Shown piece by piece: positions 8,114-19,643 of a DNA stretch of 31,633 nt (position 1 is the stretch's first letter; each line of letters opens with the position of its first letter). Below the pieces are notes generated by a model that was not told where the DNA came from, ran no database searches, and saw nothing but the letters and a program-made list of their open reading frames with translations. A program made the translations under genes and the position numbers. The stretch comes from a virus. Location: the IMG/VR virus record IMGVR_UViG_3300027833_000153, positions 1 through 31,633 of that record. One strand, written 5' to 3'.

Positions 8114-8396
8114 CAGCGACCTTCGACTCTTGCTTCTTAGCTCGAGCTTCCTTTGCACCCTCGCTGTTCGGATCGTAGACTCGGCAGCAAGCCTTTCCGC
8201 TACGGCTCATGAACATAGTCAAGTACACGTTACCTCCGTGTCCCTCACTGTTCTTTGCGGTAAGGTATTTGTCCAGCATCTCTTGAAGCTCGTGGTCCTT
8301 AAGCTTAAGCCTCCACCCGATGAGCTCATTGTTGTCGTTGTAGGAGGGGTCATCGGCCCAGCCGACGAGCACACTGTCGTTCTTTCTTTCTGTCAT
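8097..8396 (-). CDS. Putative single-stranded-DNA-binding protein with DDLPF tail
   Basis: 99 residues. It ends in ESKVADDLPF, nearly identical to the acidic tip (DDIPF) by which bacterial SSB recruits partner proteins. The body, about 75 residues, is predicted to be mostly strands (GWRLKLKDHEL, GNVYLTMFMS, ACCRVYD), compatible with a small OB fold, though no OB signature is certain. It lies between the RecE-like/annealing pair and the primase-helicase, where phages normally carry their SSB. A true SSB is likely but unproven; the tail could also belong to another SSB-mimicking protein. Confidence 0.6.
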   Translation of the reverse strand: MTERKNDSVLVGWADDPSYNDNNELIGWRLKLKDHELQEMLDKYLTAKNSEGHGGNVYLTMFMSRSGKACCRVYDPNSEGAKEARAKKQESKVADDLPF

Positions 8397-8407
8397 GTTT
8401 ACGTGTG

Positions 8408-8479
8408 TTAGAGTATTTGCAACAAGGCGAATATAACTAGGATAGCTATGAATGCAAGGTCAGACTTCAAATTTTGCAT
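8408..8479 (-). CDS. Putative 23-residue single-TM microprotein
   Basis: ATG at 8479 to TAA at 8408-8410. After MQNLKSD the remainder is one continuous hydrophobic helix (LAFIAILVIFALLQIL). The start lies inside the last codons of the RecE-like gene (18-base overlap) and the ORF fills exactly the otherwise empty gap before the SSB-like gene. The hydrophobicity and the fit to the gap are the support; no homology is known and translation is unproven. Confidence 0.4.
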   Translation of the reverse strand: MQNLKSDLAFIAILVIFALLQIL

Positions 8480-9224
8480 AACCTTCCAATTCTTCTTCGT
8501 CTCGCGCCATCCACTCCTGGATGTTTGTTAACGCTTCATTGAATTTCATCTCACCAGAGAACAGGGTTTTCTCTGAGCACCTCACCAAACCTGGGTAGTA
8601 GGGGTCGGTCTTCTCCTGTACGAGCCAGTAGAATTCATCCTTGCCTGTCACCAAAGTGTAGATGTAGGCTTGGATATCGTAGCAGAAGGATCCGACATCG
8701 TACCTGAATTTACTCATCGATCGGGTGGACTTGCTGTCGCACACAAAGTCTGGGTGTAGGTAGTCGATGAAGCCCTTCAGGGGTACACCATCGATGTCTT
8801 CGTTGAACTCCACCTGCGGCTGTCCCCCACTCAACACTGAGTGAAGTAGCCCCTCGTCGTCAAGCCTTGTGATCATGTCCTCGGCCTTCTTCCAGTCGTC
8901 GCTGCTAACTACTGTACGACCCGACTCCTTTGCTGTCTCGGAAAATACCTGAACCCTTTCCTTGTACACCTTGGTTAGCTTAGGGTTATTGGACTTGATA
9001 CCCTTGGTTAGATCCTCCTCATCCATAACAATGTACTGATTGGGGGCTTCGTTGGGGGTCAATAACAGGCAGTCGTAGAGGGAGCCGAAGCGCAAGGCGT
9101 CACTCTCCTTAAAGAGTGTGCCCCGCATGTACTTCTCCCACTGCCTCATGTCACCGAGGGCATACTTCATTGAAGAGTATGACAGGTGCGGTTTCCCGTA
9201 CCGTTCTTTTAGTTGATCTCTCAT
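8460..9224 (-). CDS. RecE-like exonuclease (PDDEXK-type recombination nuclease)
   Basis: 254 residues. HLSYSSMKYALGD at the N-terminus, then ALRFGSLYDCLLLTP (43-57), E139 in QVEF, LKGFIDYLHPD (149-159) and VCDSKST (161-167), then Q185 in CYDIQAYIYT: the order and residues of the RecE-type PD-(D/E)XK nucleases (acidic D154 and D163, K165). The His often found after FGS is Asp here. Such enzymes resect linear dsDNA to give 3' overhangs. The next gene upstream in the operon encodes an annealing-protein candidate with a 4-base overlap, the classic exonuclease/annealase pair. Confidence 0.8.
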   Translation of the reverse strand: MRDQLKERYGKPHLSYSSMKYALGDMRQWEKYMRGTLFKESDALRFGSLYDCLLLTPNEAPNQYIVMDEEDLTKGIKSNNPKLTKVYKERVQVFSETAKESGRTVVSSDDWKKAEDMITRLDDEGLLHSVLSGGQPQVEFNEDIDGVPLKGFIDYLHPDFVCDSKSTRSMSKFRYDVGSFCYDIQAYIYTLVTGKDEFYWLVQEKTDPYYPGLVRCSEKTLFSGEMKFNEALTNIQEWMARDEEELEGYAKFEV

Positions 9225-9847
9225 CGAACGAATTTGAAGAGTCCAGACAATTGCTGTTCGGAAAGCTGATCCCCGTACTTGCTCTCGATCAAGTCGTATG
9301 CCTTACGCTTGTCAGGGTGACCCTTGATGTAGTTCACGGCCTTCTCCATCATGTCCGCCTCGGGCTCCTCCTTCTTTGCAGGAGCTTTCTTGGCAGGGGC
9401 CTTCTTTGCAGGGGCTTTCTTGGCGGGGGCCTTCGGCTTTGCAGCAGCAGGGTGAGAGAAGTCCTCCTCTTTCTTTGCTGGCTTCGTGTCCTGCTGTGCG
9501 ATCGCTGTCTCCACCTCGTTAGCTGAGGCGATGCTTGCATCGATACCAATACCGAGCATAGCGAGAGCTCTACCTACGGCTGACGTCTCGCAGTTCTCTA
9601 CATAGCTGGTCTTGTTGATGTTGCTAGAAGAACGATCCTCGTGGGCATGGCCCGTGGCGATGACCCTCTGGTTTTCATCTGCTATGATACACTTGAACAC
9701 GACCAACTCGCTGTCGAAGTGGGTTAGCTCAGTGATGACACTGTAGTTCTTGATGGAGTCTTCTTGACGCAGGTATTTAATGCGTTCGTTGACTTCAACG
9801 TACTGCTTGCCACGGATGTTCGTGGTCTTGAATTTGTATGTACTCAT
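9221..9847 (-). CDS. Single-strand annealing protein (ERF/Rad52-like group) with Lys/Ala/Pro linker
   Basis: 208 residues. Residues 10-115 contain VNERIKYLRQ, VVFKCIIADENQRVIATGHAHED and NKTSYVENCETSAVGRALAMLG, a signature of phage ssDNA-annealing proteins that work with RecE-like nucleases (the E-x-x-E-T-S-A-x-G-R-A-L element is highly characteristic). A low-complexity KKAPA linker follows at about residues 135-160 and a short helical C-terminal domain (MEKAVNYIKGHPDKRKAYDLIESKYGD) resembling a small DNA- or protein-binding domain. Overlaps neighbours by 4 bases on both sides. Role: homologous recombination and replication restart of the phage genome. Confidence 0.75.
   Translation of the reverse strand: MSTYKFKTTNIRGKQYVEVNERIKYLRQEDSIKNYSVITELTHFDSELVVFKCIIADENQRVIATGHAHEDRSSSNINKTSYVENCETSAVGRALAMLGIGIDASIASANEVETAIAQQDTKPAKKEEDFSHPAAAKPKAPAKKAPAKKAPAKKAPAKKEEPEADMMEKAVNYIKGHPDKRKAYDLIESKYGDQLSEQQLSGLFKFVR
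9371..9430 (-). repeat. Four 15-bp tandem units coding KKAPA linker
   Basis: Units begin at 9371, 9386, 9401 and 9416 and alternate between two variants (a 30-bp higher-order repeat). They encode the repeated Lys-Lys-Ala-Pro-Ala of the annealing-protein linker. Copy number is likely variable between relatives. Confidence 0.8.
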
Positions 9848-10266
9848 TTGATTAATGAAATAAAGGTTGCGTAATCTACTTTACCGTACAGTTTTTCCAG
9901 TGGCACGCTGACGAAACGTGAATCCATATCGATGTCAACACTCTCGGTGCGCTCTTCGATTTTCTTGGCGACCTCACCTGAGAAGGGCCATGTTTGGTTT
10001 TTGTCCTGGGCTTTGTAAAGACCAGCCTCTTTCTCTAATCGCTTTGATCTCGTATGAATCTTTCCCAAAGCAATGCCGAGCACCCTAGCCTTTCCGCTTA
10101 CGCTTGACTTCGTTCGACCCATACTGTCCGCAAGGCGGCTAACGGTAGGCGCGTCAATACATATTGACATCACGCCTCCACTTTCCTCGATGATTAAATC
10201 CAAGTTGTCTTCTAGAATGCCTGTCTCTTCAGCATTCCACATTTTGTGTGTGAGTTTCTTGCTCAT
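9844..10266 (-). CDS. Putative DNA-binding protein with Myb/HTH-like N-terminus
   Basis: 140 residues. The N-terminal half reads KMWNAEETGILEDNLDL and then PTVSRLADSMGRTKSSVSGKARVLGI, the pattern of a SANT/GcrA-like helix-turn-helix in which a Trp-x-x-E-E helix precedes a recognition helix after 'GRT'. The C-terminal half is charged (KTHTRSKRLEKEAGLY is not a known motif). It overlaps the annealing protein by 4 bases. It could be a regulator of the early promoters or a DNA-compacting protein; the sequence does not decide. Confidence 0.5.
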   Translation of the reverse strand: MSKKLTHKMWNAEETGILEDNLDLIIEESGGVMSICIDAPTVSRLADSMGRTKSSVSGKARVLGIALGKIHTRSKRLEKEAGLYKAQDKNQTWPFSGEVAKKIEERTESVDIDMDSRFVSVPLEKLYGKVDYATFISLIK

Positions 10267-10276
10267 TGTGTTGTTG

Positions 10277-10906
10277 TTAAAATCCTTTTTTTGCTGCCGC
10301 CATCCTGAGATTATTTATCTCCTTGATCAGGTCACTATCCGTAGCTCCATCATCATACATCACGAACTGATCACACATGTTCATGAAGTCCCGCACAATA
10401 TCCATGGATGCTAGAGCTTGCTCCATCAGTCGTTGACGCTGATTGAAATTTCTTTCAAGATGCTCAGGTTTAAAGCATACTTGAATCAAGTTTTTGTCTG
10501 AGCTTTCTAACAGTGACTCAATGCAGTTCCTAAACTGCTTAGAGTACCCAAAGTCTGACTCCCTCAAGTTGTTGCACTTGCGGATACTGTTGATCATTGT
10601 GCTGTGATCTCGGTCAACACTCTTACCCAGGCTTCCCAGAGTAGATGAGGGGTCTAGACTCATAGCCAAGAAGCAGTATGCGTGCCTAGCGTGTGCTATT
10701 TTCTTTACCCTGCTTCGACCCTTAATTAATTCTGGGTCTACATCAAACACTTCGCTCACCACTCTCATCACTTCACTTCTAAGTAAGTCTGAGTTTATGT
10801 GCGTTTTTAATTGCAGTTTTGTGGACAGGCCAGTCAGTTGTTTGCGCTCCATCTGCACTCGTTCACTTGCGATTTTGAACCTCTGATGTGGGCTTAATTT
10901 TTTCAT
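10277..10906 (-). CDS. DnaA domain-IV-like origin-binding protein without AAA+ domain
   Basis: 209 residues. Residues 45-115 match the C-terminal DNA-binding domain of DnaA: VSEVFDVDPELIKGRSRVKKI, ARHAYCFLAM and the signature VDRDHSTM (97-104; bacterial DnaA has GRDHTTV). The AAA+ ATPase and domain I are absent; instead there is a 44-residue basic N-terminus and a 95-residue helical C-terminus. It may bind DnaA boxes or phage iterons to start replication or to act as a repressor. It overlaps the upstream stop by one base (TAATG). Family call of the domain is firm; function inferred. Confidence 0.8.
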   Translation of the reverse strand: MKKLSPHQRFKIASERVQMERKQLTGLSTKLQLKTHINSDLLRSEVMRVVSEVFDVDPELIKGRSRVKKIAHARHAYCFLAMSLDPSSTLGSLGKSVDRDHSTMINSIRKCNNLRESDFGYSKQFRNCIESLLESSDKNLIQVCFKPEHLERNFNQRQRLMEQALASMDIVRDFMNMCDQFVMYDDGATDSDLIKEINNLRMAAAKKGF

Positions 10907-11358
10907 TACTTAATTGATACGTTGGTTACTTTCATAAAGATTTTGCTCGGCGCATGAGCGAAGTACTTGAGCAGGGCAGGGCATAGCCAGAACTCGTGGG
11001 TGTCCAGCGTGTCATACTCTGTTGCTATGATTTGATAGTCGTTACCACCCATGCTTGGGGCGACGTGCTCGGCTAGGATTCCCCAACCAGGGAACTGCCC
11101 GTCACTGAATAGGATGTCGATGCAGGCTTGGTCGGGTTGAGAAGACCGTAAGCGTGCAATCTCATCGAAGATTTCGTCTGCTCCAGCTACAAAGGGTTCC
11201 TTGATTAAGCCTAGGCCGTAGTGGTCGAAGACCCAAGAGCTTTCGTGCTGATAGACACGCATGGTGTATATCGAATTCTGACAGTCTCGTGTGCCCAGTT
11301 TGGGTTCACGATTAGATGTGATGACGGATCGGATTTGTTGTGCCCACTCTTTAAGCAT
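10906..11358 (-). CDS. Conserved protein, DUF6717-like
   Basis: 150 residues. WVFDHYGLGLIKEPFVAGADEI, followed by FSDGQFPGW and finally EFWLCPALLKYF, is the pattern of a small widespread family seen in phages and bacteria that I recall as DUF6717; its biochemical role is unknown. The N-terminal 20 residues are extra and basic. Overlaps the upstream gene by 8 bases and the DnaA-like gene by one. Confidence 0.6.
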   Translation of the reverse strand: MLKEWAQQIRSVITSNREPKLGTRDCQNSIYTMRVYQHESSWVFDHYGLGLIKEPFVAGADEIFDEIARLRSSQPDQACIDILFSDGQFPGWGILAEHVAPSMGGNDYQIIATEYDTLDTHEFWLCPALLKYFAHAPSKIFMKVTNVSIK

Positions 11359-11743
11359 ATGTCTTTGTGATTTCTGGTTGAATGATGAGCCGACCGAAGG
11401 TGGCGAGCATCGGGTGTGTTGTGTTGTCTATGTCTTGGCGCTTGCTGTTGAACCAATGTACCCTGCGCTTGGGGTTGTAGTGGAAGAAGCTCTTCACATC
11501 AGGAACAGAGAACTGACCTCGTGGCTTGACGATGACCGAGTCACACTCGACCCATGCACACACAGTCTTATTCTCTCCGCTCAAGATTCGCTCTGCTGTG
11601 CCCCTCTGATTGCGGAGGACGGCGTTGTGCATCTCCAGGATTACGTCCTCGGGGTCGTAATATTCTACCTCATCCCCAGTGCGCACCTGCCATCGGTACT
11701 TGTTCGGTCCATTGGCAAGGTGGAATCGGACCTTAGTGGTCAT
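11351..11743 (-). CDS. Conserved phage protein of unknown function
   Basis: 130 residues from the ATG at 11743; the longer frame start at 11875 is read through the neighbouring gene in another frame and is rejected. Strong beta pattern at the N-terminus (TTKVRFHLANGPNKYRWQV) and a segment KTVCAWVECDSVIV reminiscent of small phage and plasmid proteins that have WQ and CAW motifs. No catalytic residues recognised. Overlaps upstream by 11 bases and downstream by 8. Confidence 0.65.
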   Translation of the reverse strand: MTTKVRFHLANGPNKYRWQVRTGDEVEYYDPEDVILEMHNAVLRNQRGTAERILSGENKTVCAWVECDSVIVKPRGQFSVPDVKSFFHYNPKRRVHWFNSKRQDIDNTTHPMLATFGRLIIQPEITKTYA

Positions 11744-11924
11744 GGCGCTCAAGGATTTTAGTGATGGTGATGGAGCCGAAGCTCGTTTGGTTTTGGATGC
11801 GGCGCTTGTGATTGATGGCATCATCCATGTCGTAGCAGGGGATCCAATCTGAGGACACCCCGTCACCTTCGTCACCTGCTAGGTACGCTACTACGTACTT
11901 CATCTTACTGCTGTCTTTACTCAT
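11733..11924 (-). CDS. Small phage protein of unknown function
   Basis: 63 residues; begins MSKDSSKMKYVVAYLAGDEG and contains a CYDMDDAINHKRRIQNQ helix. The pattern strand-helix-strand suggests a tiny alpha/beta domain. Overlaps upstream gene by 4 bases (ATGA) and downstream by 11. Confidence 0.55.
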   Translation of the reverse strand: MSKDSSKMKYVVAYLAGDEGDGVSSDWIPCYDMDDAINHKRRIQNQTSFGSITITKILERHDH

Positions 11925-12115
11925 TGCTTGTGTGGGTTGCGAGCGGCGATGCGCTCAGGGAACATGACGTCCAGGATTTTCCTTTGCTTCTTTTCGTATC
12001 TCTCACGCTTGCCTTCGTCATGCACTTCATACTGAAGCACGTCATCGAGTAGGTCAAGGAGTTTATTGAGTGCCGTGGCTTGCTCCACCGTCCATCTTGT
12101 TTCAGTATCCGTCAT
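11921..12115 (-). CDS. Small helical protein of unknown function
   Basis: 64 residues from the ATG at 12115, chosen because it makes an ATGA overlap with the gene upstream and because many neighbours begin with MTD. Helical and charged (NKLLDLLDDVLQYEVHDEG, then KRERYEKKQRK); could form a coiled-coil dimer. Confidence 0.55.
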   Translation of the reverse strand: MTDTETRWTVEQATALNKLLDLLDDVLQYEVHDEGKRERYEKKQRKILDVMFPERIAARNPHKQ

Positions 12116-12258
12116 CGTTTTGTGGGGTTGATGCACTTGACTCGGCGTTGCTCCGCCTTGTGCTTTTCGTATGCTTCATCGGATACGGGAATCTCTACGC
12201 GCTTGCCGACTTGACTGGACATCATGTCCTCCAACCATAGGGTGAGTGTGTCTTTCAT
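12112..12258 (-). CDS. Small protein of unknown function
   Basis: 48 residues from the ATG at 12258 (too short for usual gene length cutoffs in this form). Begins MKDTLTLWLEDMM; basic C-terminus. The start is supported by ATGA overlap with a tiny membrane ORF upstream and by the CA-rich leader before the ATG that recurs in this block. Confidence 0.5.
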   Translation of the reverse strand: MKDTLTLWLEDMMSSQVGKRVEIPVSDEAYEKHKAEQRRVKCINPTKR

Positions 12259-12341
12259 TGTGTGTGTGTTGCGATTAATAAGAGGATGCACAGGAAGATC
12301 CCTGCCCATCCGAATGCGATAATGTCTTCAGTGTCCTTCAT
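12255..12341 (-). CDS. Putative 28-residue single-TM microprotein
   Basis: ATG at 12341, stop TGA at 12255-12257 forming ATGA with the next gene. A short acidic N-terminus (MKDTEDI) is followed by one hydrophobic helix (IAFGWAGIFLCILLLIA). Overlaps the upstream gene by 14 bases, so it occupies a gap with coupling at both ends. A second tiny membrane ORF of the same style lies at 8408-8479. Confidence 0.45.
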   Translation of the reverse strand: MKDTEDIIAFGWAGIFLCILLLIATHTQ

Positions 12342-12600
12342 AGTCTTCTAGTACTACGGCGTCACCACTAGCAAGGGCGTCACGCTCATCCCTCCCTAAA
12401 AAGCCCCCACCTCGTTTGCTTACAAGCTGAAATCTATATAGGCCCCACCCCCACTGATTCTTGAGGTCATCCCACCATATGTTGAGGTCGTGTGGCATAT
12501 TGTTCCACATGACTGTCATCCAATCGTCCTCCCCGTATACTTTGTAGGGGCCGTAGCCTGACATCTCGTCGAGGCACTTGATGTATATGTGATCAGCCAT
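12328..12600 (-). CDS. Trp-rich small phage protein of unknown function
   Basis: 90 residues from the ATG at 12600, which overlaps the stop of the 59-residue gene upstream (ATGGCTGA); a start at 12618 is also open. Unusually rich in Trp (DDWMTVMWNNMP, NIWWDDLKNQWGWGLY) and acidic at the end (VVLEDYEGH). No family recognised. Confidence 0.6.
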   Translation of the reverse strand: MADHIYIKCLDEMSGYGPYKVYGEDDWMTVMWNNMPHDLNIWWDDLKNQWGWGLYRFQLVSKRGGGFLGRDERDALASGDAVVLEDYEGH

Positions 12601-12772
12601 TGGGGGAAAGGAGGTCAAGGATTTTTGCTAACGCATCAGTGTATTCAGGCTTGATGTTGTCTTCGTCTTTGTTCAAGAGGCGTAGGAATTTCACTACCTC
12701 ATGTTCACGAGATTGATACTCGTGAATCTGCTTACGCAGGTTGTTGAACTGAAGGTTTCTTTCGTCGGTCAT
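12593..12772 (-). CDS. Small helical protein, first gene after promoter P1
   Basis: 59 residues, ATG at 12772, TGA at 12593-12595. Begins MTDERNLQFNNLRKQIHEYQ and is helical and charged throughout, consistent with a coiled coil. It starts 24 bases after the -7 element of promoter P1, with the recurring CATCAATCAACC-type leader between. Not recognised. Confidence 0.6.
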   Translation of the reverse strand: MTDERNLQFNNLRKQIHEYQSREHEVVKFLRLLNKDEDNIKPEYTDALAKILDLLSPNG

Positions 12773-12795
12773 TGTGTGGTGGTTGATTGATGGAG

Positions 12796-12847
12796 CAAAC
12801 CTACAACATTGTTAAGTGGTTGTCAAGTTCTTTAACACTTTTTAACA
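12796..12847 (-). promoter_or_regulatory. Early promoter P1 (TTGACA-N17-TAGGTTTG with TGTTAAA repeat)
   Basis: Read on the minus strand: TGTTAAA at 12847-12841 and again at 12837-12831 (10-bp period), TTGACA at 12826-12821, a 17-bp spacer, then TAGGTTTG at 12803-12796. TAnnTTTG is the Bacteroidetes -7 element. It serves the gene starting at 12772. Same layout as the four other copies. Confidence 0.85.
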
Positions 12848-13126
12848 TTCTCCCCTGTCTTCCTTCAGAATGTCGAAGACTTGTACAGGTACGGAGTCTC
12901 GGAACGCAGTGTCTTGTTTGCATATCCACTTGTACATGGTGTTCGAGTCCTCGTACTTAGCAAACCTGTTCGACAGCTCCCGCATTACGGGTGAGTCGAT
13001 GTCCTTGCAGTATCCGAACCGCTTGTTCATCTCTTTGTGTTGATCCCTCATGTATCTCGCTCGTTCTCTTAGCCGTGTCGCGATGTGCCTGTCGAGGTGC
13101 TTGGTGCGTGTGAAAAATTTATTCAT
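12842..13126 (-). CDS. Basic small protein of unknown function
   Basis: 94 residues from MNKFFTRTKHLDRH at 13126 (ATGA overlap with upstream stop). Strongly basic N-terminal half (RHIATRLRERARYMRDQHKEMNKRF, abridged), so may bind nucleic acid. The stop codon TAA after a Cys codon (TGT TAA) is part of the TGTTAAA repeat of promoter P1. Confidence 0.6.
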   Translation of the reverse strand: MNKFFTRTKHLDRHIATRLRERARYMRDQHKEMNKRFGYCKDIDSPVMRELSNRFAKYEDSNTMYKWICKQDTAFRDSVPVQVFDILKEDRGEC

Positions 13127-13293
13127 GTGTTGGTTTCTACTTCTTGCACTCGGTTCCACTGGTAGTTCTTGGTCACGGGAACCCAGTATTCGATGTCGGT
13201 CTCAGGGTCGTACCAGAGTTCGTGGTGCTGCCCCGTGATGTCATCCTGCCATGCACTGGTATACTCAAGGCGGTCAATTATTTCTTGCTTCAT
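13123..13293 (-). CDS. Small acidic protein of unknown function
   Basis: 56 residues from the ATG at 13293; a longer frame to 13470 is antisense-like low-quality sequence and rejected. MKQEIIDRLEYTSAWQDD begins the protein; aromatic and acidic residues (HHELWYDPETDIEYWVPV) dominate. Preceded by a CA-rich leader without Shine-Dalgarno. Confidence 0.5.
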   Translation of the reverse strand: MKQEIIDRLEYTSAWQDDITGQHHELWYDPETDIEYWVPVTKNYQWNRVQEVETNT

Positions 13294-13322
13294 TGGTTCT
13301 GTGTCAAATTTTTGTGTGTGTG

Positions 13323-13532
13323 TCAGAGGTACTTGCGGATGCAGAAGTCCACCACAGCCTGCCAATCGATGTGGTCTGTGTCCATAGGGGTGAATTCGAG
13401 CGCCGTGAGTGTTTTGCGGCGGGCATCCACAGGGAATTCTTTTGCCACGAAGGAATTGATATCCTCCCAATTGACGAGGGTGAACAGCTTTACCTGAAGC
13501 TCATTCTGGAGCGGTGTGAGTGTGTTTGTCAT
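13323..13532 (-). CDS. Small phage protein of unknown function
   Basis: 69 residues from MTNTLTPLQ at 13532 (ATGA overlap with upstream stop). Contains KLFTLVNWEDINSFVAKEF and ends FCIRKYL. A comparable ending FxSMVQWCIDRRKS appears in the 18162-18431 protein, a weak resemblance only. Confidence 0.55.
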   Translation of the reverse strand: MTNTLTPLQNELQVKLFTLVNWEDINSFVAKEFPVDARRKTLTALEFTPMDTDHIDWQAVVDFCIRKYL

Positions 13533-13711
13533 GGTTGTTGGTTTTTCCATTCGTCTGCGCGGAATTGGATTTCCGCATCGGAGATTTGCACATAGATATC
13601 AAAGCCTACGTGAACGTATACATATGAGAAGTCGGCCTGATATGCATCCACGTCAATGGACTTGAAGTAATTCAGGCAGTCTTCGATTGTGGACTTGTAT
13701 TGCTTGTTCAT
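13529..13711 (-). CDS. Small phage protein of unknown function
   Basis: 60 residues; MNKQYKSTIEDCLNYFKSID then a Tyr/Val-rich strand region (FSYVYVHVGFDIYVQI) and a short helix. Probably a small alpha/beta protein. ATGA-type overlaps on both sides. Confidence 0.55.
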   Translation of the reverse strand: MNKQYKSTIEDCLNYFKSIDVDAYQADFSYVYVHVGFDIYVQISDAEIQFRADEWKNQQP

Positions 13712-13950
13712 TTTGATTGCTCAGGTAGTTTTTCCCCCATGACCCACCCGAAACAGAACTCGGCAAGGGCTCCCCTGAAGTTCTCCATCTCGGTTCCGTC
13801 ATCATCGAGCGTGTCGGTGACGTCATGATCAAGCAGAAGCCATAGGCGGTCAACAAAATCGCTGTCGAGACTCATTTCATCAATGGCGTTGAATTGTTTG
13901 CGTTGCTTTGGAGTAAGTAGGTCTGTCTTCGTGTATTCGTAGTAGCTCAT
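13708..13950 (-). CDS. Small acidic protein of unknown function
   Basis: 80 residues from MSYYEYTKTDLL at 13950. The open frame extends to 14076 but that part is the tRNA-Arg gene read in-frame, so the start just downstream of the tRNA is chosen. Acidic (DHDVTDTLDDDGTEMENF); ends FCFGWVMGEKLPEQSK. No family recognised. Confidence 0.6.
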   Translation of the reverse strand: MSYYEYTKTDLLTPKQRKQFNAIDEMSLDSDFVDRLWLLLDHDVTDTLDDDGTEMENFRGALAEFCFGWVMGEKLPEQSK

Positions 13951-13964
13951 GTGTTCTGTGTTTG

Positions 13965-14037
13965 TACCCACGGCAGGAATCGAACCTGCGACCGACTGCT
14001 TAGAAGGCAGTTGCTCTATCCCCTGAGCTACGTGGGT
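13965..14037 (-). tRNA. tRNA-Arg(TCT)
   Basis: Complete 73-nt cloverleaf on the minus strand: acceptor ACCCACG/CGTGGGT, D-stem GCTC/GAGC, anticodon stem ACTGC/GCAGT with loop CTTCTAA (anticodon TCT), T-arm GCAGG-TTCGAAT-CCTGC, discriminator A. CCA is not encoded. AGA is a codon used often in the late genes, so the tRNA may supplement the host pool. Confidence 0.95.
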
Positions 14038-14113
14038 GGGGTAGGGGCCTCTCACCCCCTCGACGCACGATGACAAAGTTCAAATGGGTGGTGCGCTCTC
14101 ACCCTCAACACCC

Positions 14114-14129
14114 CGTGGTCCCCACCACG
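14114..14129 (-). other. Perfect hairpin after a small gene
   Basis: CGTGGT-GGGG-ACCACG on the minus strand, one base past the stop of the 39-residue gene. No T-run follows, so it is more likely an mRNA-end stabiliser or processing element than a terminator. The rest of 14038-14113, up to the tRNA, shows no gene. Confidence 0.4.
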
Positions 14130-14130
14130 T

Positions 14131-14250
14131 TCACTTCATACCAATGATGCCAGCAACAACGCTGTATAGTTCGTTTGCTTCATCGAAACTGTAAGGGTCA
14201 TCGATACACATCATCTCAAGCGCATAGCGCAAATCATTTTCGTCTTCCAT
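14131..14250 (-). CDS. Very small acidic protein of unknown function
   Basis: 39 residues from the ATG at 14250, TGA at 14131-14133. MEDENDLRYALEMM, then DDPYSFDEANELYSVV and a hydrophobic end. Five bases downstream of the previous stop, in operon spacing. Codon use looks coding; no homologue recalled. Confidence 0.45.
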   Translation of the reverse strand: MEDENDLRYALEMMCIDDPYSFDEANELYSVVAGIIGMK

Positions 14251-14255
14251 TGCGG

Positions 14256-14684
14256 TTACCCAAACACTATTTCGTTGTACAGGATGCACTGCAACAGCAC
14301 ATCGCTTGTTGTCGCGTCACCATTATCCCTCATCATGTCGTTGAAGTGACGAGGATAAGAGTTTGCCATGGTCATCACGCCCCTCTTAATACTTGCGGGG
14401 GTGATGTGATTTAGTTCTCGGTCGTCATCCTCCACCTCTACGTAGAAGCGGAGGTCGTGGATGCAACACCATGACATGACCTTTGAGTATGTCTCCCCCA
14501 ACTTCTGCTCTTTCCATGGGGACTCCTTGTGCCTTGTCTTTAGGCTACCCCAATCGATGCACTTAATCCAGTAATTGCTACCCCCTTCGAAGGCCCCGAC
14601 GATCAGGTCTGTTGCCTTTGAAAACTCGATACTTGTCTTGACCTCGATGGTCTTGAGTGTTGCTACGTCTGTCATGATACTCAT
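14256..14684 (-). CDS. Conserved-looking phage protein of unknown function
   Basis: 142 residues. MSIMTDVATLKTIEVKTSIEFSKATD opens, then AFEGGSNYWIKCIDWG, a GGSNYW pattern that I have the impression recurs in phage proteins, and ITPASIKRGVMTMANSYPRHFNDMM near the C-terminus. An alternative start is MTDVATLK at 14675; the one at 14684 is preferred for its ATGA overlap. No catalytic motif recognised. Confidence 0.65.
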   Translation of the reverse strand: MSIMTDVATLKTIEVKTSIEFSKATDLIVGAFEGGSNYWIKCIDWGSLKTRHKESPWKEQKLGETYSKVMSWCCIHDLRFYVEVEDDDRELNHITPASIKRGVMTMANSYPRHFNDMMRDNGDATTSDVLLQCILYNEIVFG

Positions 14685-14824
14685 TTGCTTCTGTTAATCT
14701 GTTTGTTTACCAAGTCGATAGCGTCATCGACTTTCTTTTCTGTTTCGATTTCCCCTGCAAATTCAACGCAGTTGCTTGCCTTCCAGAGTGCGTCTCGCAC
14801 CAACATGAGTTCTGCTTTTGTCAT
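14681..14824 (-). CDS. Small helical protein, paralogue-like pair member
   Basis: 47 residues from the ATG at 14824. MTKAELMLVRDALWKAS resembles the start of the next gene upstream (MTQDEIQKVQQALMMAE), and both end in an Ile/Leu/Lys helix (AIDLVNKQINRSK and AIEITDKYTDE). They look like a tandem duplication. ATGA overlaps at both ends. Confidence 0.5.
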   Translation of the reverse strand: MTKAELMLVRDALWKASNCVEFAGEIETEKKVDDAIDLVNKQINRSK

Positions 14825-14979
14825 TCGTCTGTGTACTTGTCTGTGATTTCGATTGCCTCGGTCAGCACTTTGCTGAGTGGATTGGACAGCCCTTCGATTG
14901 CCCCCTTTGGGGTGGCGAGATAGAACATCTCCGCCATCATCAGTGCCTGTTGCACCTTTTGGATTTCGTCTTGTGTCAT
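14821..14979 (-). CDS. Small helical protein, paralogue-like pair member
   Basis: 52 residues from the ATG at 14979. Two helices, similar in pattern to the product of 14681-14824. The reading frame upstream of 14979 is a shadow of the 220-residue gene. ATGA overlaps at both ends. Confidence 0.5.
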   Translation of the reverse strand: MTQDEIQKVQQALMMAEMFYLATPKGAIEGLSNPLSKVLTEAIEITDKYTDE

Positions 14980-15638
14980 ACTTTTTCGCTGATGGGTCCG
15001 TGTTCTCCGTAGATGTGCCTCCATCCAATGAACCTCCATTCGTTCGGCTGTTTGGCAATCTCCCAGTATGCCTTCTCCTCTGTCTCTGACAGCATACCCT
15101 CGTGGTATACCCTTGCCCAATCGGACACCTCCCTGTCTGAGATTTCCACCCCTGTGGAGTCTGAAAAATCGTCTTGCCACACGTTGATACCGAGCGTTTG
15201 CTTGCCTGCCCACTTGCCTGGTGTGTCGTCGCCCTCTCGAACCCATACCGTGAAGCCTCGCATCTTGAGCAGGACAGCGGCAATCTCCACGTCTGTGGCG
15301 GGGAGTTCCTGAGTGTATAGCTTCACCCGCTCCTCGGTAGCGAGTAGGCAACCATGGGCTGTGTACCACTCGTCCTCCTCGGATGGGTCCCACTCGGTCC
15401 AGTGGCAGATGTCCTGCTCGAAGGCGGCCTCCAACACCTCGTCGTCGGTGCGCTCAGAGGTGGGCTTCATGTCCGTCCAAAAGTCTTTCCAATTGGGGCC
15501 ACGCAATTCTGCGATGACGTCCGCTTCGTACTTGATGTACATGGCTCCGTCTCCGAAGAGCCATCCTGAATTCATGCCTTCGCCTGTTTTGTCACAGCGT
15601 CGAGCATATACTACGGGGGTGGTGATTGTGTCTGTCAT
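14976..15638 (-). CDS. Conserved phage protein, first gene after promoter P2
   Basis: 220 residues from MTDTITTPVVYARRCDKTGEGMNSGW at 15638 (positions 1-26, abridged in meaning: a Cys and Gly-rich start). The C-D-x-T-G-x-G-M-x-x-G-W pattern followed by acidic, Trp-rich segments (HWTEWDPSEEDEW) is of a type I have seen in phage early proteins without known role. The C-terminal part contains a YWEIAKQPNEWRFIGWRHIYGEHGP element. The start is 19 bases past the -7 element of P2; an ATG at 15677 lies upstream of the promoter's -7 and is rejected. Confidence 0.65.
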   Translation of the reverse strand: MTDTITTPVVYARRCDKTGEGMNSGWLFGDGAMYIKYEADVIAELRGPNWKDFWTDMKPTSERTDDEVLEAAFEQDICHWTEWDPSEEDEWYTAHGCLLATEERVKLYTQELPATDVEIAAVLLKMRGFTVWVREGDDTPGKWAGKQTLGINVWQDDFSDSTGVEISDREVSDWARVYHEGMLSETEEKAYWEIAKQPNEWRFIGWRHIYGEHGPISEKV

Positions 15639-15656
15639 GTCGATTGATTGATGATG

Positions 15657-15708
15657 CAAATATAAGGAGTTGTTCAAACGTTGTCAAGGTATTTAACACT
15701 TTTTAACA
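15657..15708 (-). promoter_or_regulatory. Early promoter P2 (TTGACA-N17-TATATTTG with TGTTAAA repeat)
   Basis: Minus strand: TGTTAAA at 15708-15702 and 15698-15692, TTGACA at 15687-15682, 17-bp spacer, TATATTTG at 15664-15657, the best match of the five to the Bacteroidetes -7 consensus. Drives the gene starting at 15638. Confidence 0.88.
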
Positions 15709-15938
15709 TTTAGCCGTTCTTCACAGCCCATGAACAGCTCGATGTGTTCGTCCCACTCGATGTCGTACCCCTCCCCGATTCCGTACTCGGTCAAGGGGCG
15801 TTGGTGGTGGTCCACGAACTGAGCCGCCCAACGTACCACGAGGTCATACGTGTCCACGAAATGCACGTGGGGCTTGCTCGCTACGTAGAACATGGTGTAC
15901 GCCACCACCTCCATGATTTTTTTGTCTCTCTCGGTCAT
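15693..15938 (-). CDS. Small phage protein of unknown function
   Basis: 81 residues. N-terminal MTERDKKIMEVVAYTMFYVASKP, then His-containing VHFVDTYDLVVRWAAQFVDHH, and an acidic segment EWDEHIELFMGCEERLNVKKC. Its last codons and stop (AAT GTT AAA AAG TGT TAA) are the TGTTAAA direct repeat of promoter P2. ATGA overlap with the upstream gene. Confidence 0.6.
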   Translation of the reverse strand: MTERDKKIMEVVAYTMFYVASKPHVHFVDTYDLVVRWAAQFVDHHQRPLTEYGIGEGYDIEWDEHIELFMGCEERLNVKKC

Positions 15939-16111
15939 TGCTCTTTCGTTTCGAATTCGTCGTAGAACTTGCCGATGCCACCTTTCAGGCTGTCGCGCTC
16001 TTCGTCGGAGTCATACTGACCGAGCATCACCCAGTTCGGGTAGGTGAGGGAGCGCGTGGCGCGTCCATACAGGTTGAACATACGTTGGGAGGGGGTTTTG
16101 TTTTCGGTCAT
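15935..16111 (-). CDS. Small protein of unknown function
   Basis: 58 residues from the ATG at 16111. MTENKTPSQRMFNLYGRATR is basic, the C-terminal half acidic (DSDEERDSLKGGIGKFYDEF). ATGA overlaps on both sides place it firmly in the operon. Confidence 0.55.
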   Translation of the reverse strand: MTENKTPSQRMFNLYGRATRSLTYPNWVMLGQYDSDEERDSLKGGIGKFYDEFETKEQ

Positions 16112-16245
16112 CGGTCTCTTGTGTCAGGGTCCATTTCGATTGCACACTCTGTGCAGTCTACTTCTTCTTGGTCGGGGCCATAGCCCACGAGTCTGCGTCC
16201 TGTGCCTTCGCACATTTCACAGGTGTATATGTCTTTTTCTTTCAT
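16108..16245 (-). CDS. 45-residue zinc-ribbon protein (DnaJ-type CxxCxGxG)
   Basis: ATG at 16245. CEMCEGTGRR and then CTEC give a four-cysteine CxxC-x(n)-CxxC ribbon with the Gly pattern of DnaJ zinc fingers. No J domain is present. Together with the next gene upstream it forms a pair of tiny zinc-ribbon proteins. Role unknown; could be protein-binding adaptors or RNA-binding. Confidence 0.55.
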   Translation of the reverse strand: MKEKDIYTCEMCEGTGRRLVGYGPDQEEVDCTECAIEMDPDTRDR

Positions 16246-16266
16246 TATTTCAGGGGGTTGCAAGCG

Positions 16267-16461
16267 TCAGGGTTGTGGTGGGGGTTGTGGGTTTGACACA
16301 GACGCCTCTCGGCGGGCATACTCCGCCGCTTGCTCGTCAGTCCAAGAGACTGCGCCCTCTTGGTAGCATTCGTCGCACCGCTCGACGTATTCTTTCTCGC
16401 CGAGTGTACGGGTGGTGTGGATGTAGCCTTTGCCGCTACAGGTTTCGCATTGTGTGCTCAT
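16267..16461 (-). CDS. Zinc-ribbon protein with hammerhead-derived 3' end
   Basis: 64 residues from MSTQCETCSGKGYIH at 16461; a longer frame to 16524 is rejected because the upstream gene ends at 16463. CETCSGKGY ... CDEC is a DnaJ-like zinc ribbon. The final 25 codons (from WTDEQAAEYARREASVSN on) are encoded by DNA that matches the 3' half of the two hammerhead ribozymes of this block at 16295-16340, followed by a Pro/Gln tail from the same CCCACAACCCCC leader sequence. So the C-terminus appears to be captured ribozyme/leader DNA. Confidence 0.6.
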   Translation of the reverse strand: MSTQCETCSGKGYIHTTRTLGEKEYVERCDECYQEGAVSWTDEQAAEYARREASVSNPQPPPQP

Positions 16462-16462
16462 G

Positions 16463-17197
16463 TCAGTGGATTTTGATTTTGACGTTCTTGCTACCCTTGC
16501 CCACGATCCCCGAGCACAGGCCACAGGTGGAGCAGTTGGACACGCTTAACTCCTTGGATGCAGGGCATTGGACAGCCGTCGAAGTGTCGTCGGGTTCGGT
16601 GCAGACGAAGGCCCGCCACCCCGTGATGGATGCCGCGTCTTTGTCAGAGTGGGCCGAAGCCATGAAGTATTGGGAGTAGTCTTGCGCCCAGTCCTTGCGG
16701 GCCTGGTGTGTGTACCCCGTCCACTTGCATTGCCCCGCCACCACGATGTCGCCAACAAGGTCGAGTGGGAGGAGCGAAGGCTCCCCGTATGTACCGAAGC
16801 GGATGAAGTCCGCACGTTCGGCCATAAGCTTGATACCCAAGCGGTCCACGTCATCCAAGCCTTCGTGGATTTCTTCCATGCACAGGGATTTGAGCATGGA
16901 CACCATGCCTGAGAACTGCATATACTTGTGGGTGTAGCACTTGCCATTGCCTGAATTGTTCGAGAGCGGGCAGTCCATGCAGTTGGCCGCGTCGAGGTCG
17001 AAGAAATCCGACATTGGAATTTTTCTCTTGCCGTCGAGGTGTGACCGCACGAGGGCCAATTGGCGAAGGTCGAAGTGATACGTTTGCAGGACTTTGTCCG
17101 TGGGTCGTGCAATCTTTGCGTTGGTGGTCTTGCCTAAGCGGACCACATGGAGGACGTCGCCGTCATGCCACGCTATGCGGGTGGGTGTCTTTGCCAT
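16463..17197 (-). CDS. Cys-rich conserved phage protein (DUF7227-like), first gene after P3
   Basis: 244 residues from MAKTPTRIAWHDGD at 17197; a start at 17242 lies upstream of the promoter's -7 element and is rejected. Cysteines in order: CMDCPLSNNSGNGKCYTHK, then FIRFGTYGEPSLLPLDLV, GQCKWTGYTHQ, WRAFVCTEPDD, CPASKE, and a final CSTCGLCSG. The order RFGTYG-E-P and TGYTH with a C-terminal cysteine cluster matches a phage family often left unnamed (I recall it as DUF7227); a metal cluster or zinc site is likely. Function unknown. Not a radical SAM protein by visible motif (no CxxxCxxC). Confidence 0.65.
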   Translation of the reverse strand: MAKTPTRIAWHDGDVLHVVRLGKTTNAKIARPTDKVLQTYHFDLRQLALVRSHLDGKRKIPMSDFFDLDAANCMDCPLSNNSGNGKCYTHKYMQFSGMVSMLKSLCMEEIHEGLDDVDRLGIKLMAERADFIRFGTYGEPSLLPLDLVGDIVVAGQCKWTGYTHQARKDWAQDYSQYFMASAHSDKDAASITGWRAFVCTEPDDTSTAVQCPASKELSVSNCSTCGLCSGIVGKGSKNVKIKIH

Positions 17198-17221
17198 GGG
17201 TGGTGGGGTTGATTGATGATT

Positions 17222-17273
17222 CGAAGATACGGACTTGTTCAAAGGTTGTCAAGGCTTTTAACACTTTTTAACA
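17222..17273 (-). promoter_or_regulatory. Early promoter P3 (TTGACA-N17-TATCTTCG with TGTTAAA repeat)
   Basis: Minus strand: TGTTAAA at 17273-17267 and 17263-17257, TTGACA at 17252-17247, 17-bp spacer, TATCTTCG at 17229-17222. Drives the gene starting at 17197. Confidence 0.85.
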
Positions 17274-17486
17274 ATTCGGAAAGCTGTACCACACCACGGA
17301 GACTCCTTTCGTGGACAGGTTCAGGCTTGCGCCACTGTCAATGAGCCGCGAAAGGAACAAGTGCGGGGCATACACAAGCGTGATTTCCTCATGTGCGGGG
17401 TCGAACTTGAACGTGGGTGGGAGGCCGCCGAATCGGTTGACGACATTGAGAAACGCTTTTTGCTGGGCTTTGTAATTGTCCGTCAT
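17268..17486 (-). CDS. Small phage protein, gene after P4
   Basis: 72 residues from MTDNYKAQQKAFLNVV at 17486. Short helix then strands (EITLVYAPHLFLSRLI, GVSVVWYSFPN). Ends with Cys-TAA taken from the TGTTAAA repeat of P3. A longer frame to 17666 runs through a promoter and is rejected. It is the only gene between P4 and P3. Confidence 0.6.
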   Translation of the reverse strand: MTDNYKAQQKAFLNVVNRFGGLPPTFKFDPAHEEITLVYAPHLFLSRLIDSGASLNLSTKGVSVVWYSFPNC

Positions 17487-17514
17487 GTGGGGGTGTGTTG
17501 ATTGATTGATGACA

Positions 17515-17566
17515 CAAATGTAGTGGATTGTTGAAGGGTTGTCAAGGCTTTTAACACTTTTTAACA
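17515..17566 (-). promoter_or_regulatory. Early promoter P4 (TTGACA-N17-TACATTTG with TGTTAAA repeat)
   Basis: Minus strand: TGTTAAA at 17566-17560 and 17556-17550, TTGACA at 17545-17540, 17-bp spacer, TACATTTG at 17522-17515. Serves the 72-residue gene at 17486. Preceded by a tRNA-like hairpin. Confidence 0.87.
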
Positions 17567-17576
17567 TTTGAGTTGG

Positions 17577-17626
17577 AGCGCAGAGGGGACTCGAACCCCC
17601 CGCCCTTGCGGGCCACCATGTGCGCT
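17577..17626 (-). ncRNA. tRNA-like mini-RNA (acceptor and T-arm, no anticodon arm)
   Basis: On the minus strand AGCGCA (17626-17621) pairs with TGCGCT (17582-17577). Inside lie a GCCC-GCAA-GGGC hairpin (17613-17602, GNRA loop) and a T-arm, GGGGG-TTCGAGT-CCCCT (17600-17584), followed after the acceptor by CCA. It has the T-loop TTCGAGT of tRNAs but at 50 nt has no room for D and anticodon arms. It follows the metallopeptidase gene by 9 bases and precedes promoter P4. It may be a processing (RNase P/Z) signal, a tRNA mimic, or a tRNA remnant. Confidence 0.45.
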
Positions 17627-17635
17627 TGTGTGTGT

Positions 17636-18082
17636 TCACTCGAAGTATCCGCCGAACAATTCCCAAGCCACCTCGTCTGTGACCTCGTACTTGTGGTACT
17701 TACACATCAGCGGGCAACTTTCGTTGTGCTCAACCCCAAGGACGCTGTGAAGTAACTCGTGTAGGGTCGTGTACAGAAGCTCGGTGTGTGTGCTCGTGTC
17801 ACTTGCGCCCTCGCAAGTCCCTTTGACGATGTGGACGATGTTGCGCCCAAGCCAAGCGTATCCAAGGGTGGAGCACTCGCCCCCGTCCACGATTCGGACC
17901 TCTTGCCTCGGTAGGCGCGGGTGTCCGTTCGCCTGTAGTCGGCGGTTGGCATCGTAGATGATGTCGATGACCTTGCGCCGAAGGGCGTACACGCTGTCAT
18001 CCATGCGCATTGGCTCGTGTCCGTATGCCCCGCGAGTACGGCGGCGAGTAGAGCGGGAGGGGGTGGGGGTGGGTGTGTTCAT
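17636..18082 (-). CDS. Putative zinc metallopeptidase (HExxH, metzincin-like), ribozyme-led
   Basis: 148 residues from MNTPTPTPSRS at 18082. A Pro/Thr/Arg-rich N-terminus is followed by a compact domain with TLHELLHSVLGVEH (active site at residues 108-119) and CPLM (Met126), which recall the HExxHxxGxxH helix and Met-turn of metzincins, but with one extra residue before the Gly. CECS and EGASDTSTH are nearby. No signal peptide, so it would act in the cytoplasm unless released at lysis. Its mRNA start is a hammerhead cleavage site 21 nt upstream of the ATG. Confidence 0.6.
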   Translation of the reverse strand: MNTPTPTPSRSTRRRTRGAYGHEPMRMDDSVYALRRKVIDIIYDANRRLQANGHPRLPRQEVRIVDGGECSTLGYAWLGRNIVHIVKGTCEGASDTSTHTELLYTTLHELLHSVLGVEHNESCPLMCKYHKYEVTDEVAWELFGGYFE

Positions 18083-18097
18083 GTGTGTGTGGGTTTT

Positions 18098-18147
18098 GAC
18101 ACAGACGCCTCTCGGCGTTTCGACCAATCAGGTCTCGTCAGTGTGCC
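18098..18147 (-). ncRNA. Hammerhead ribozyme A (type I), 5' of metallopeptidase gene
   Basis: Minus strand, all conserved parts present. Stem I: GGCACA (18147-18142) with UGUGUC (18103-18098), one G-U pair. Core CUGACGA (18141-18135). Stem II: GACC/GGUC (18134-18131 with 18125-18122), 5-nt loop. GAAA (18121-18118). Stem III: CGCC/GGCG with a GAGA loop (18117-18106), closed by the A118-U105 pair. Cleavage after C18104. The 3' product would begin at 18103, giving a 21-nt 5'-OH leader to the ATG at 18082. It lies between two genes, in a gap of 79 bases. Confidence 0.9.
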
Positions 18148-18161
18148 TGACTTTCAGCGAG

Positions 18162-18431
18162 TTAGATGGTGAATCCGTGGCACTCCAACTGACGCTTGTT
18201 CTCGCGGCTCTGGCACTCGTCTGCGATGGCTCGCCAATACGCTTCGATGTCCAGCAATTGGTGGAAGAAGGCAAGCCGTTGGTCGTACGCCTGATCCTCG
18301 CGCATCAGGCCCTCCTTGACGCTCTTGCGGCGGTCGATGCACCACTGCACCATTGAATCGAAGGTGGATTGGTCGAGGGTTTGCAGGGACGCAATCGCGT
18401 TTTGGCAGCTAGGGGTAAGGGTGTATTCCAT
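18162..18431 (-). CDS. Small helical protein of unknown function, ribozyme-led
   Basis: 89 residues, ATG at 18431. MEYTLTPSCQNAIASLQTLD opens; FDSMVQWCIDRRKSVKEGLM and FFHQLLDIEAYWRAIADECQ are helices. No family recognised. The start follows hammerhead B by 24 bases and a CA-rich leader; the stop precedes hammerhead A by 14 bases. So the gene is flanked by ribozymes and would be cut out as a separate mRNA. Confidence 0.65.
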   Translation of the reverse strand: MEYTLTPSCQNAIASLQTLDQSTFDSMVQWCIDRRKSVKEGLMREDQAYDQRLAFFHQLLDIEAYWRAIADECQSRENKRQLECHGFTI

Positions 18432-18455
18432 GTGTGTGTGGGGGGTTGTGGGTTT

Positions 18456-18505
18456 GACACAGACGCCTCACGGCGTTTCGGCTACTTAAGCCTCGTCAGT
18501 GTGCC
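18456..18505 (-). ncRNA. Hammerhead ribozyme B (type I), 5' of 18162-18431 gene
   Basis: Minus strand. Stem I: GGCACA (18505-18500) with UGUGUC (18461-18456). Core CUGACGA (18499-18493). Stem II: GGCU/AGCC (18492-18489 with 18483-18480) with a 5-nt loop. GAAA (18479-18476). Stem III: CGCC/GGCG with a GUGA loop (18475-18464). Cleavage after C18462, leaving a 30-nt 5'-OH leader. Relative to copy A, pairs 2 and 4 of stem II change on both sides (A-U to G-C, C-G to U-A) and the stem III loop stays GNRA: compensatory evidence for a maintained fold. Confidence 0.9.
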
Positions 18506-18518
18506 TGACTGCCTACGC

Positions 18519-19070
18519 TCAGAAGGCCATTTCGAGTTGGCCCTCCTCCGCAATCGCCGCCGCCACAATCGCCTCCTGCTCGGCGAGCCAGTGTGCCTTC
18601 GCAAGGTTGGCAGCTTCGACGATGGTCAGCCCTGCGGGGATTTTGCCTGCACTCTCGACCGCTCGGGGTGTGTACCCCTCAGGTGCGGACACCACCTCCG
18701 AACGTGTGCCGTCCACGGCTTCGACCACCTCGGTACGGGAGGCCAAGTCCTTCGCCGCTCTCGCCTCCGCCTTTCGCAGGGACTCACGTTGTGCCCTTGC
18801 CTCCATACGGTCGTTCGAGGACTTGCCCCCTTGACCCGCCTTCTTCGCCATCTCCTTCGGAGAGGTGTGCTTGCGCTGCTTTGCCCAAGCTGCCTTGTTG
18901 GCGGCCTTTCGTTCGGCCCTTGTGGGCTTGGATGCCTTGGGTGTGCTTGCCTTACGCTTGGGCTTGGGCTTGGACGCTTGCTCGGCGGCAAACTTCGCTT
19001 TGTTGGCGGCCTTCCGCTCTGCTCTCGTGAGCTTGCGGCCTTCGGCGGTGTGAGTAGGAGTGTATGTCAT
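18519..19070 (-). CDS. Lys/Ala-rich basic protein, first gene of the early block (after P5)
   Basis: 183 residues from MTYTPTHTAEGRKL at 19070. Two near-identical segments TRAERKAANKA occur at about residues 15-28 and 50-63, followed by a long charged helix and an Ala-rich C-terminal helix ending EEGQLEMAF. Low-complexity, very basic N-terminal half suggests nucleic-acid or host-polymerase binding. As the first product of the strongest position in the block it could be a host-takeover or histone-like protein; no family was recognised. Codon third positions are very GC-rich. Start is 26 bases past the -7 element of P5; an ATG at 19091 is rejected as too close. Confidence 0.6.
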   Translation of the reverse strand: MTYTPTHTAEGRKLTRAERKAANKAKFAAEQASKPKPKRKASTPKASKPTRAERKAANKAAWAKQRKHTSPKEMAKKAGQGGKSSNDRMEARAQRESLRKAEARAAKDLASRTEVVEAVDGTRSEVVSAPEGYTPRAVESAGKIPAGLTIVEAANLAKAHWLAEQEAIVAAAIAEEGQLEMAF

Positions 19071-19095
19071 GGGGGTTGTGTTTTGAACCATGCCG

Positions 19096-19147
19096 CAAAC
19101 TTAGGGTATTGTTGAAAGGTTGTCAAGGGTTTAGAGGGTGTTTAACA
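19096..19147 (-). promoter_or_regulatory. Early promoter P5 (TTGACA-N17-TAAGTTTG, one TGTTAAA half)
   Basis: Minus strand: TGTTAAA at 19147-19141; the second half-repeat is degenerate. TTGACA at 19126-19121, 17-bp spacer, TAAGTTTG at 19103-19096. Probably starts the whole leftward block. Confidence 0.82.
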
Positions 19148-19612: not shown

Positions 19613-19643
19613 TTGACTTTGTCAATTTTTTCGTGTAACTTCG
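19613..19643 (+). promoter_or_regulatory. Rightward late promoter (TTGACT-N17-TAACTTCG)
   Basis: TTGACT at 19613-19618, exactly 17 bp, TAACTTCG at 19636-19643: same architecture as the early cassette but without the TGTTAAA repeat. It is followed by a 230-base leader before the first late gene at 19879. Confidence 0.65.

Follow-up and report, generated by a model that had tools for sequence, protein, structure and literature searches.

Candidate RprY-type boxes of the host upstream of five promoters in a probable Bacteroidota phage

The boxes of the Escherichia coli OmpR/PhoB-family proteins CpxR and PhoB are direct repeats 10-11 bp apart that lie upstream of the core promoter. A similar layout is found in IMG/VR virus record IMGVR_UViG_3300027833_000153 (31,633 bases, analysed at full length and called the window below), where the same 52-base promoter, with TGTTAAA boxes that are paired in four of its five copies, stands before five gene groups, all on the minus strand; the E. 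coli boxes read GTAAA and TGTCATA rather than TGTTAAA, and their core promoter type differs. Phage promoters under host PhoBR have already been published for cyanophages, with electrophoretic mobility shift assay (EMSA) support for some of them (PMC10976474). Like those of the window, they carry boxes for a host OmpR/PhoB-family response regulator, but, as far as the available part of that report extends, the window differs in its RprY-type regulator, in its phylum, and in that five operons, rather than nutrient-stress genes, carry the boxes in one fixed phase; the window case is known from sequence.

RprY is described in Porphyromonas gingivalis and Bacteroides (PMC3646045, PMC6032018, PMC5706477), and in the available parts of these papers the P. 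gingivalis protein binds its own promoter in EMSA (PMC3646045) and is linked to oxidative stress and sodium (PMC5706477). Regulator family, autoregulation and bacterial phylum are those proposed here, whereas P. gingivalis lacks RprX, control is partly repression, and the targets are host rather than phage genes. No RprY box consensus was found in the same parts of the three papers. Bacteroidota promoters of the -33/-7 type (PMC6847099, available part) have in common with the window TAnnTTTG, whose last G lies at -5 in Flavobacterium johnsoniae, a TTG near -33, and a predicted +1 five bases past the final G; to these the window adds paired TGTTAAA boxes upstream, an extension to TTGACA and a conserved spacer.

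The order of elements in a cassette is TGTTAAA-N3-TGTTAAA-N4-TTGACA-N17-TAnnTTyG, in which the two direct half-sites share a GTTAA core and are spaced by 10 bp, and the five cassettes are as follows (ORF, open reading frame).

12796-12847, minus strand: cassette 1; box 1 12841-12847, box 2 12831-12837, TTGACA 12821-12826, -7 element TAGGTTTG 12796-12803; predicted +1 A 12791; first-gene ATG 12772; TGTTAA of box 1 is also the stop of ORF 12842-13159
15657-15708, minus strand: cassette 2; box 1 15702-15708, box 2 15692-15698, TTGACA 15682-15687, -7 element TATATTTG; predicted +1 A 15652; gene 14976-15638; TGTTAA of box 2 is also the stop of ORF 15693-15938
17222-17273, minus strand: cassette 3; box 1 17267-17273, box 2 17257-17263, TTGACA 17247-17252, -7 element TATCTTCG; predicted +1 A 17217; gene 16463-17197; TGTTAA of box 1 is also the stop of ORF 17268-17486
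17515-17566, minus strand: cassette 4; box 1 17560-17566, box 2 17550-17556, TTGACA 17540-17545, -7 element TACATTTG; predicted +1 A 17510; gene 17268-17486
19096-19147, minus strand: cassette 5, diverged; single TGTTAAA 19141-19147, second box CTCTAAA, TTGACA 19121-19126, -7 element TAAGTTTG; predicted +1 coincides with the A of ATG 19091, unless translation starts at ATG 19070 after a leader of 21 nt

An earlier note on this DNA had reported five cassettes at these positions, which is borne out, and had omitted that they lie on the minus strand. Its spacing of TTGACA, N17 and TAnnTTyG is likewise exact in all five, but two TGTTAAA-N3 units placed directly before TTGACA, as it had them, give no match even with three mismatches, four bases separating box 2 from TTGACA. 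Two boxes and the CATCAATCAA leader, claimed for every copy, are present in four; cassette 5 has one box and no such leader, and escapes the full pattern at three mismatches. Nor is the N17 spacer the free sequence that it had been taken for, as TTGACAAC..TT.AACAA is kept in all five copies and its TT.AACAA is a near-match to the box in inverted orientation. With up to three mismatches allowed, the full pattern returns four copies in the window, all exact, and none in 100 dinucleotide shuffles, whereas the core by itself (TTGACA-N17-TAnnTTyG, up to two mismatches) gives an unremarkable 9 matches against 5.2 expected; it is the box pair, not the core, that makes the cassette improbable. In three copies the TGTTAA of a box doubles as the Cys-stop end of the preceding gene.

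When the F. johnsoniae spacing is applied, the predicted +1 is an A in all five cassettes and the predicted transcript begins ATCAATCAA in four; this puts box 1 at -56 to -50, box 2 at -46 to -40 and TTG at -35 to -33. The -7 element reads TAnnTTTG in four cassettes and TAnnTTCG in cassette 3, and CTTG with its G at -33 is found in all five. The cassettes do not fit an E. coli-type sigma70 promoter (TTGACA-N17-TATAAT), as they have TAnnTTyG instead of TATAAT at -10. Judged by sequence, the cassettes are Bacteroidota -33/-7 promoters. G occupies disfavoured positions of the -7 element in cassettes 1 and 5, and the element of cassette 1 may be weak because G at -10/-9 is nearly absent from F. 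johnsoniae promoters (PMC6847099, available part). The ACA of TTGACA may be incidental or part of a half-site. A rightward-facing promoter-like site at window 19613-19643 (plus strand) resembles one at position 965 (minus strand) of L124, the nearest relative of the window; both read TTGAC.TTGTCA ... TAACTTCG and are without TGTTAAA boxes.

Bacterial genomes and viruses were scanned, blind to gene context, for TGTTAAA-N3-TGTTAAA-N15..45-TAnnTTTG. The results are samples rather than censuses (at least 118 genome and at least 119 viral stretches) and the counts that follow are among the matches listed; exact duplicates were dropped before gaps were counted, leaving 113 viral rows from 108 loci, and nonredundant counts differ slightly between the gap-peak and TTG analyses, whose filters differ. 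Genome matches are, by record titles, mostly Bacteroidota. The gap between box pair and TAnnTTTG is 26-28 in 68 of 118 genome sites and exactly 26 in 56 of them; nonredundant sites fall in this peak in 63 of 111 cases (p about 1e-34), with no second peak at 36-38 (10/111, p=0.64). Viral sites have gap 26-28 in 57/113 and 36-38 in 39/113 (nonredundant, 30/74, and 27/74 one helical turn upstream), and unrelated phages bear the box pair at the same phase as the window. There the gap is 27 in the four full cassettes, within the 26-28 of the host rprX-type promoters described below, with TTCG instead of TTTG in cassette 3. The 17-mer TGTTAAAAAGTGTTAAA is frequent in viral contigs, where TAnnTTTG tends to follow at 26-27, 36-37 or 48 bases. 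Among the nonredundant viral box promoters listed, the -7 element is preceded at 22-23 bases by a TTG in 14 of 32 cases with gap 26-28 and in 14 of 27 with gap 36-38. The TTG of TTGACA is explained by this, since phage box promoters often add a -33 element, and the earlier view of TTGACA as an odd sigma70-like -35 element finds no support: TTG sits at -35 to -33, where it is enriched in unrelated box-bearing phage promoters. A pile-up of 13 TAnnTTTG was also seen at 31 bases in the opposite direction from TGTTAAAAAGTGTTAAA.

Behind most genome sites at gap 26-28 stands the gene of a sensor kinase, about 520-620 residues long, and next to it that of an OmpR-type regulator. A translated search places an RprX-type kinase downstream of 45 of the 68 listed sites at this gap and of none of 50 at other gaps. 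An independent set of 296 Bacteroidia genomes contains 21 exact sites in 19 genomes, 16 of them followed by the kinase, and no match to the reversed control pattern. The neighbouring regulator matches Response_reg and Trans_reg_C, and of the NCBIfam models RprY fits it best by a wide margin (E=6e-92 and 3e-106; 307 and 354 bits, below the cut-off of 370, with Bacteroidota PhoB next at 167 and 194); for the kinase no NCBIfam model scores above cut-off. A Pho box was rejected as the identity of the repeat on the grounds that the regulators beside it match RprY far better than Bacteroidota PhoB; the available part of a B. fragilis PhoB paper gives no box sequence. Thirteen genomes are listed both with an exact box and with RprY matches, and in 11 of them the box precedes the top-scoring RprY match by no more than 3 kb. 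For the converse test, kinase genes were chosen by protein similarity alone (48 of 60 genomes matched, and the best matches gave 30 loci). Of these 30, 22 have a box pair matching in 12 or more of 14 positions within 250 bases upstream, against 1.3% of shuffles, and many have a -7 element at gap 26-28. A second sample, chosen by RprY family, comprised 20 hand-chosen regions (four above the RprY cut-off and high-ranking matches, mostly from genomes new to the test; one repeat, since L515 and L466 are a single gene, and one without a kinase) and had the box in 8 of 19, shuffles again giving 1.3%. The box is common, but not universal, upstream of RprXY-type operons.

Taken together, these results suggest, with a probability that we put at about 0.6, that the five cassettes are host RNA polymerase promoters with an upstream box of the host RprY (OmpR/PhoB-family) kind, the TGTTAAA pair most likely matching the autoregulatory box of the host RprXY system. 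Host RNA polymerase would start at five promoters of the -33/-7 type, with RprY bound to the box pair on one helix face, abutting the -33 element; from about -56 to -40 it would activate rather than block, and the early operons would be boosted together while the host system is active. RprXY may be an envelope-type stress system; secreted proteins and an HtrA-like Trypsin_2/PDZ protease, which are among the non-kinase genes behind the genome sites, would fit this. That phage entry is the trigger is speculation. The inverted TTnAACA of the spacer (TT.AACA, 5/5) may serve either RprY or a phage repressor as an additional half-site. Co-regulation of the five operons, as the earlier note had proposed, is probable given a regulator site upstream of Bacteroidota promoters.

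Several observations weigh against this reading. Among the matches listed, 23 of the 68 genome sites precede non-kinase genes, and the four regulators above the NCBIfam RprY cut-off have weak upstream boxes (9, 10, 10 and 11 of 14), spaced GTTAA cores being readable in some of these upstream regions. P. gingivalis RprY is partly described as a repressor in the available parts of PMC3646045 and PMC6032018. A TTG at the same place occurs in just 5 of the 63 host rprX-type promoters listed: the phage type, including the window, is often a -33 element plus box, whereas host rprX-type promoters are mostly box alone, so that the mode of control may differ between phage and host. The N3 pair (at least 12/14, gap 26-28) is absent from all 80 helicase relatives of the window phage, and the box pair is therefore not ancestral to the phage group; it seems to have been gained, not inherited. 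Conservation of the repeat in relatives had been set beforehand as a test, and sharing with hosts and unrelated phages was found instead.

The boxes and conserved spacer might instead form an operator for a phage-encoded regulator, for example the D5-like protein at 9844-10266, which lies inside the leftward gene block. Its half-sites would resemble TTnAACA and run TGTTAAA, TGTTAAA and then, inverted, TTGACAA and TTnAACA about one symmetry axis; the spacing is exactly symmetrical, TTGACAAC..TT.AACAA recurs in all five spacers, and L124 retains TTGnACAA..AACAAT ahead of the same CATCAATCAA leader, in one copy together with a TGTTAAA at an unchanged distance. However, unrelated phages and the rprX-type promoters of bacteria, where this protein is not expected, have the box pair in the same phase, the third half-site TTGACAA fits the consensus poorly (4/7), and the matches of the fourth come from related copies, so that the five are not independent. 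The poor third half-site and the relatedness of the copies led us to reject the fourfold dyad as a proven operator; it is retained as an unlikely rival. The DnaA-like protein was also considered as a binder and set aside on account of the DnaA-box sequence.

We regard as quite unlikely that the boxes act as a general UP-like element for contact with the alpha subunit of RNA polymerase, the cassettes being simply strong promoters. The repeats are A/T-rich, phased by 10 bp and directly upstream of the -33 element, and a second viral peak lies one helical turn upstream among the matches listed, as such an element would allow; yet the listed genome sites lack that peak, hosts seldom have the exact site (21 in 296 genomes) and have it mostly at one operon (16/21), and none of the 11 regions scanned upstream of 16S genes has the box pair (best match 8-10 of 14; 12 loci were tried, of which one was too short and two had just ~130 bases upstream). 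The earlier alternative of an operator or UP-like site can thus be kept as a regulator site, which need not serve a phage protein, but not as a general UP element. Recent duplication of one promoter segment, which would make the likeness a matter of copying rather than of shared control, is very improbable: the cassettes do belong to a family of 79-bp repeats that are 65-78% identical to the reference copy, but the boxes are identical in four of five while neighbouring positions and flanks differ, the conserved blocks coincide with functional elements, and every copy stands at a gene boundary.

On the RprY reading, the TGTTAAA pair gives the RprXY two-component system, which is widespread in Bacteroidota, a candidate binding site. 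Neither a published RprY box nor a Bacteroidota phage case of host-regulator hijack was found among open-licence literature; such hijack is known from cyanophages, and the RprY-type regulator, the box and the phylum appear to be new. If true, a second phylum and a second regulator would join cyanophage PhoB as a case of host-regulator hijack, here with strict promoter geometry, and the cassettes provide a ready set of phage promoters for Bacteroidota transcription studies. A broader and tentative proposal is that Bacteroidota phages repeatedly put early promoters under host RprXY, with the box either at -56 to -40 or a helical turn farther upstream, whereby the cell's response to phage entry would turn on the first phage genes; the same data would represent a phylum-wide RprY box.

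Among the helicase relatives, L124 (80% helicase identity) has three CATCAATCAA leaders; the promoters of two share TTGnACAA..AACAAT with the window, and one retains a single TGTTAAA at the same distance. Tandem TGTTAAA runs stand before or near CTTG, at other spacings, in L138, L143 and L161. A position weight matrix of the 52-bp cassette scores at best 15.8 in the 80 relatives (L143), compared with 66.8-75.8 for the cassettes themselves and 4.6 for the best reversed-sequence control, and several lower matches are TTGACAA-TAnnTTnG promoters without the N3 box pair. Flavobacterium phage elemoA carries one box site (gap 37, 13/14), and the five other scanned stretches of named relatives carry none. 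The exact cassette core has no match in IMG/VR, no helicase relative was confirmed in bacterial genomes, and for two viral target proteins the named phages gave no match. L124 also encodes, at 5734-6162 (plus strand), an HTH_17-domain protein whose C-terminal part looks, by eye, like the C-terminal domain of the RNA polymerase alpha subunit; a search for homologues in the window and the 79 other relatives gave none. A repeated hairpin of varying stem and near-constant loop TGAAC.TAGTGAA occurs in L126 (223-284, 1017-1078, 4704-4765) and L173 (238-270, 1243-1275, 2210-2242), with no Rfam match reported.

Small replication genes of the window run leftward, and the terminase (phrog_6681) and others lie in rightward blocks.

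4596-19091, minus strand: leftward gene block downstream of the five promoters, many small ORFs and then replication genes
5739-7607, minus strand: primase/helicase, within the leftward block
8460-9224, minus strand: exonuclease VIII-like protein, within the leftward block
9844-10266, minus strand: candidate phage regulator, weak D5-like transcription-regulator match (phrog_323, E=2.3e-5)
10277-10906, minus strand: DnaA_C protein, within the leftward block
13964-14037, minus strand: tRNA-Arg(TCT) gene
27825-27899, plus strand: tRNA-Met gene

Gene content suggests that the leftward block holds early genes. The window terminase is 42-49% identical to those of elemo-group Flavobacterium phages and an environmental podovirus, Cellulophaga and Tenacibaculum phage terminases being more distant, and one phage protein bears a CHU_C type IX secretion signal. 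Because of this signal and the terminase relatives (Flavobacterium and Cellulophaga phages), the host is very probably a member of Bacteroidota and likely a flavobacterium.

Type-I hammerhead-like ribozymes occur in the same operons: the window has two full copies, eight relatives together have 13, and Cellulophaga phage phi18:3 has one.

18440-18509 and 18082-18151, minus strand: hammerhead-like ribozymes of the window
L128 (4), L152 (2), L197 (2), L129, L134, L158, L166, L173 and L510:21890-21962: hammerhead-like ribozymes elsewhere

Their GUC cleavage site lies just upstream of start codons. Covariation among the copies is strong: in an alignment of the 16 sequences, 99% of pair cells are standard and 8 of 13 pairs change on both sides, slid controls giving 24-55%; Rfam sees one window copy, below threshold. 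The ribozymes would cleave the polycistronic early RNA, and the leaders so produced would be CA-rich, as are those of the promoters. The finding is of a known kind, since tandem phage hammerheads that may cut long transcripts have already been published (PMC3088659, available part). A third copy of the repeat in the window (16274-16314, minus strand) has stem III, cleavage site and leader only, without the catalytic core.

Just upstream of cassette 4, a tRNA-like element (17574-17626, minus strand) has an acceptor stem and a canonical T-arm, recognised by eye, whereas the D and anticodon arms are replaced by a short GCCCGCAAGGGC hairpin; ARAGORN makes no call. Short matches of 88-95% identity link the tRNA-Arg region with cyanophage DNA, mostly tRNA-Arg. 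Several otherwise unlike ORFs of the window (20712, 21332, 24455, 2985 and 19879, plus strand) have a similar N-terminal start, e.g. MRLKYQNGG.(P)GDP.

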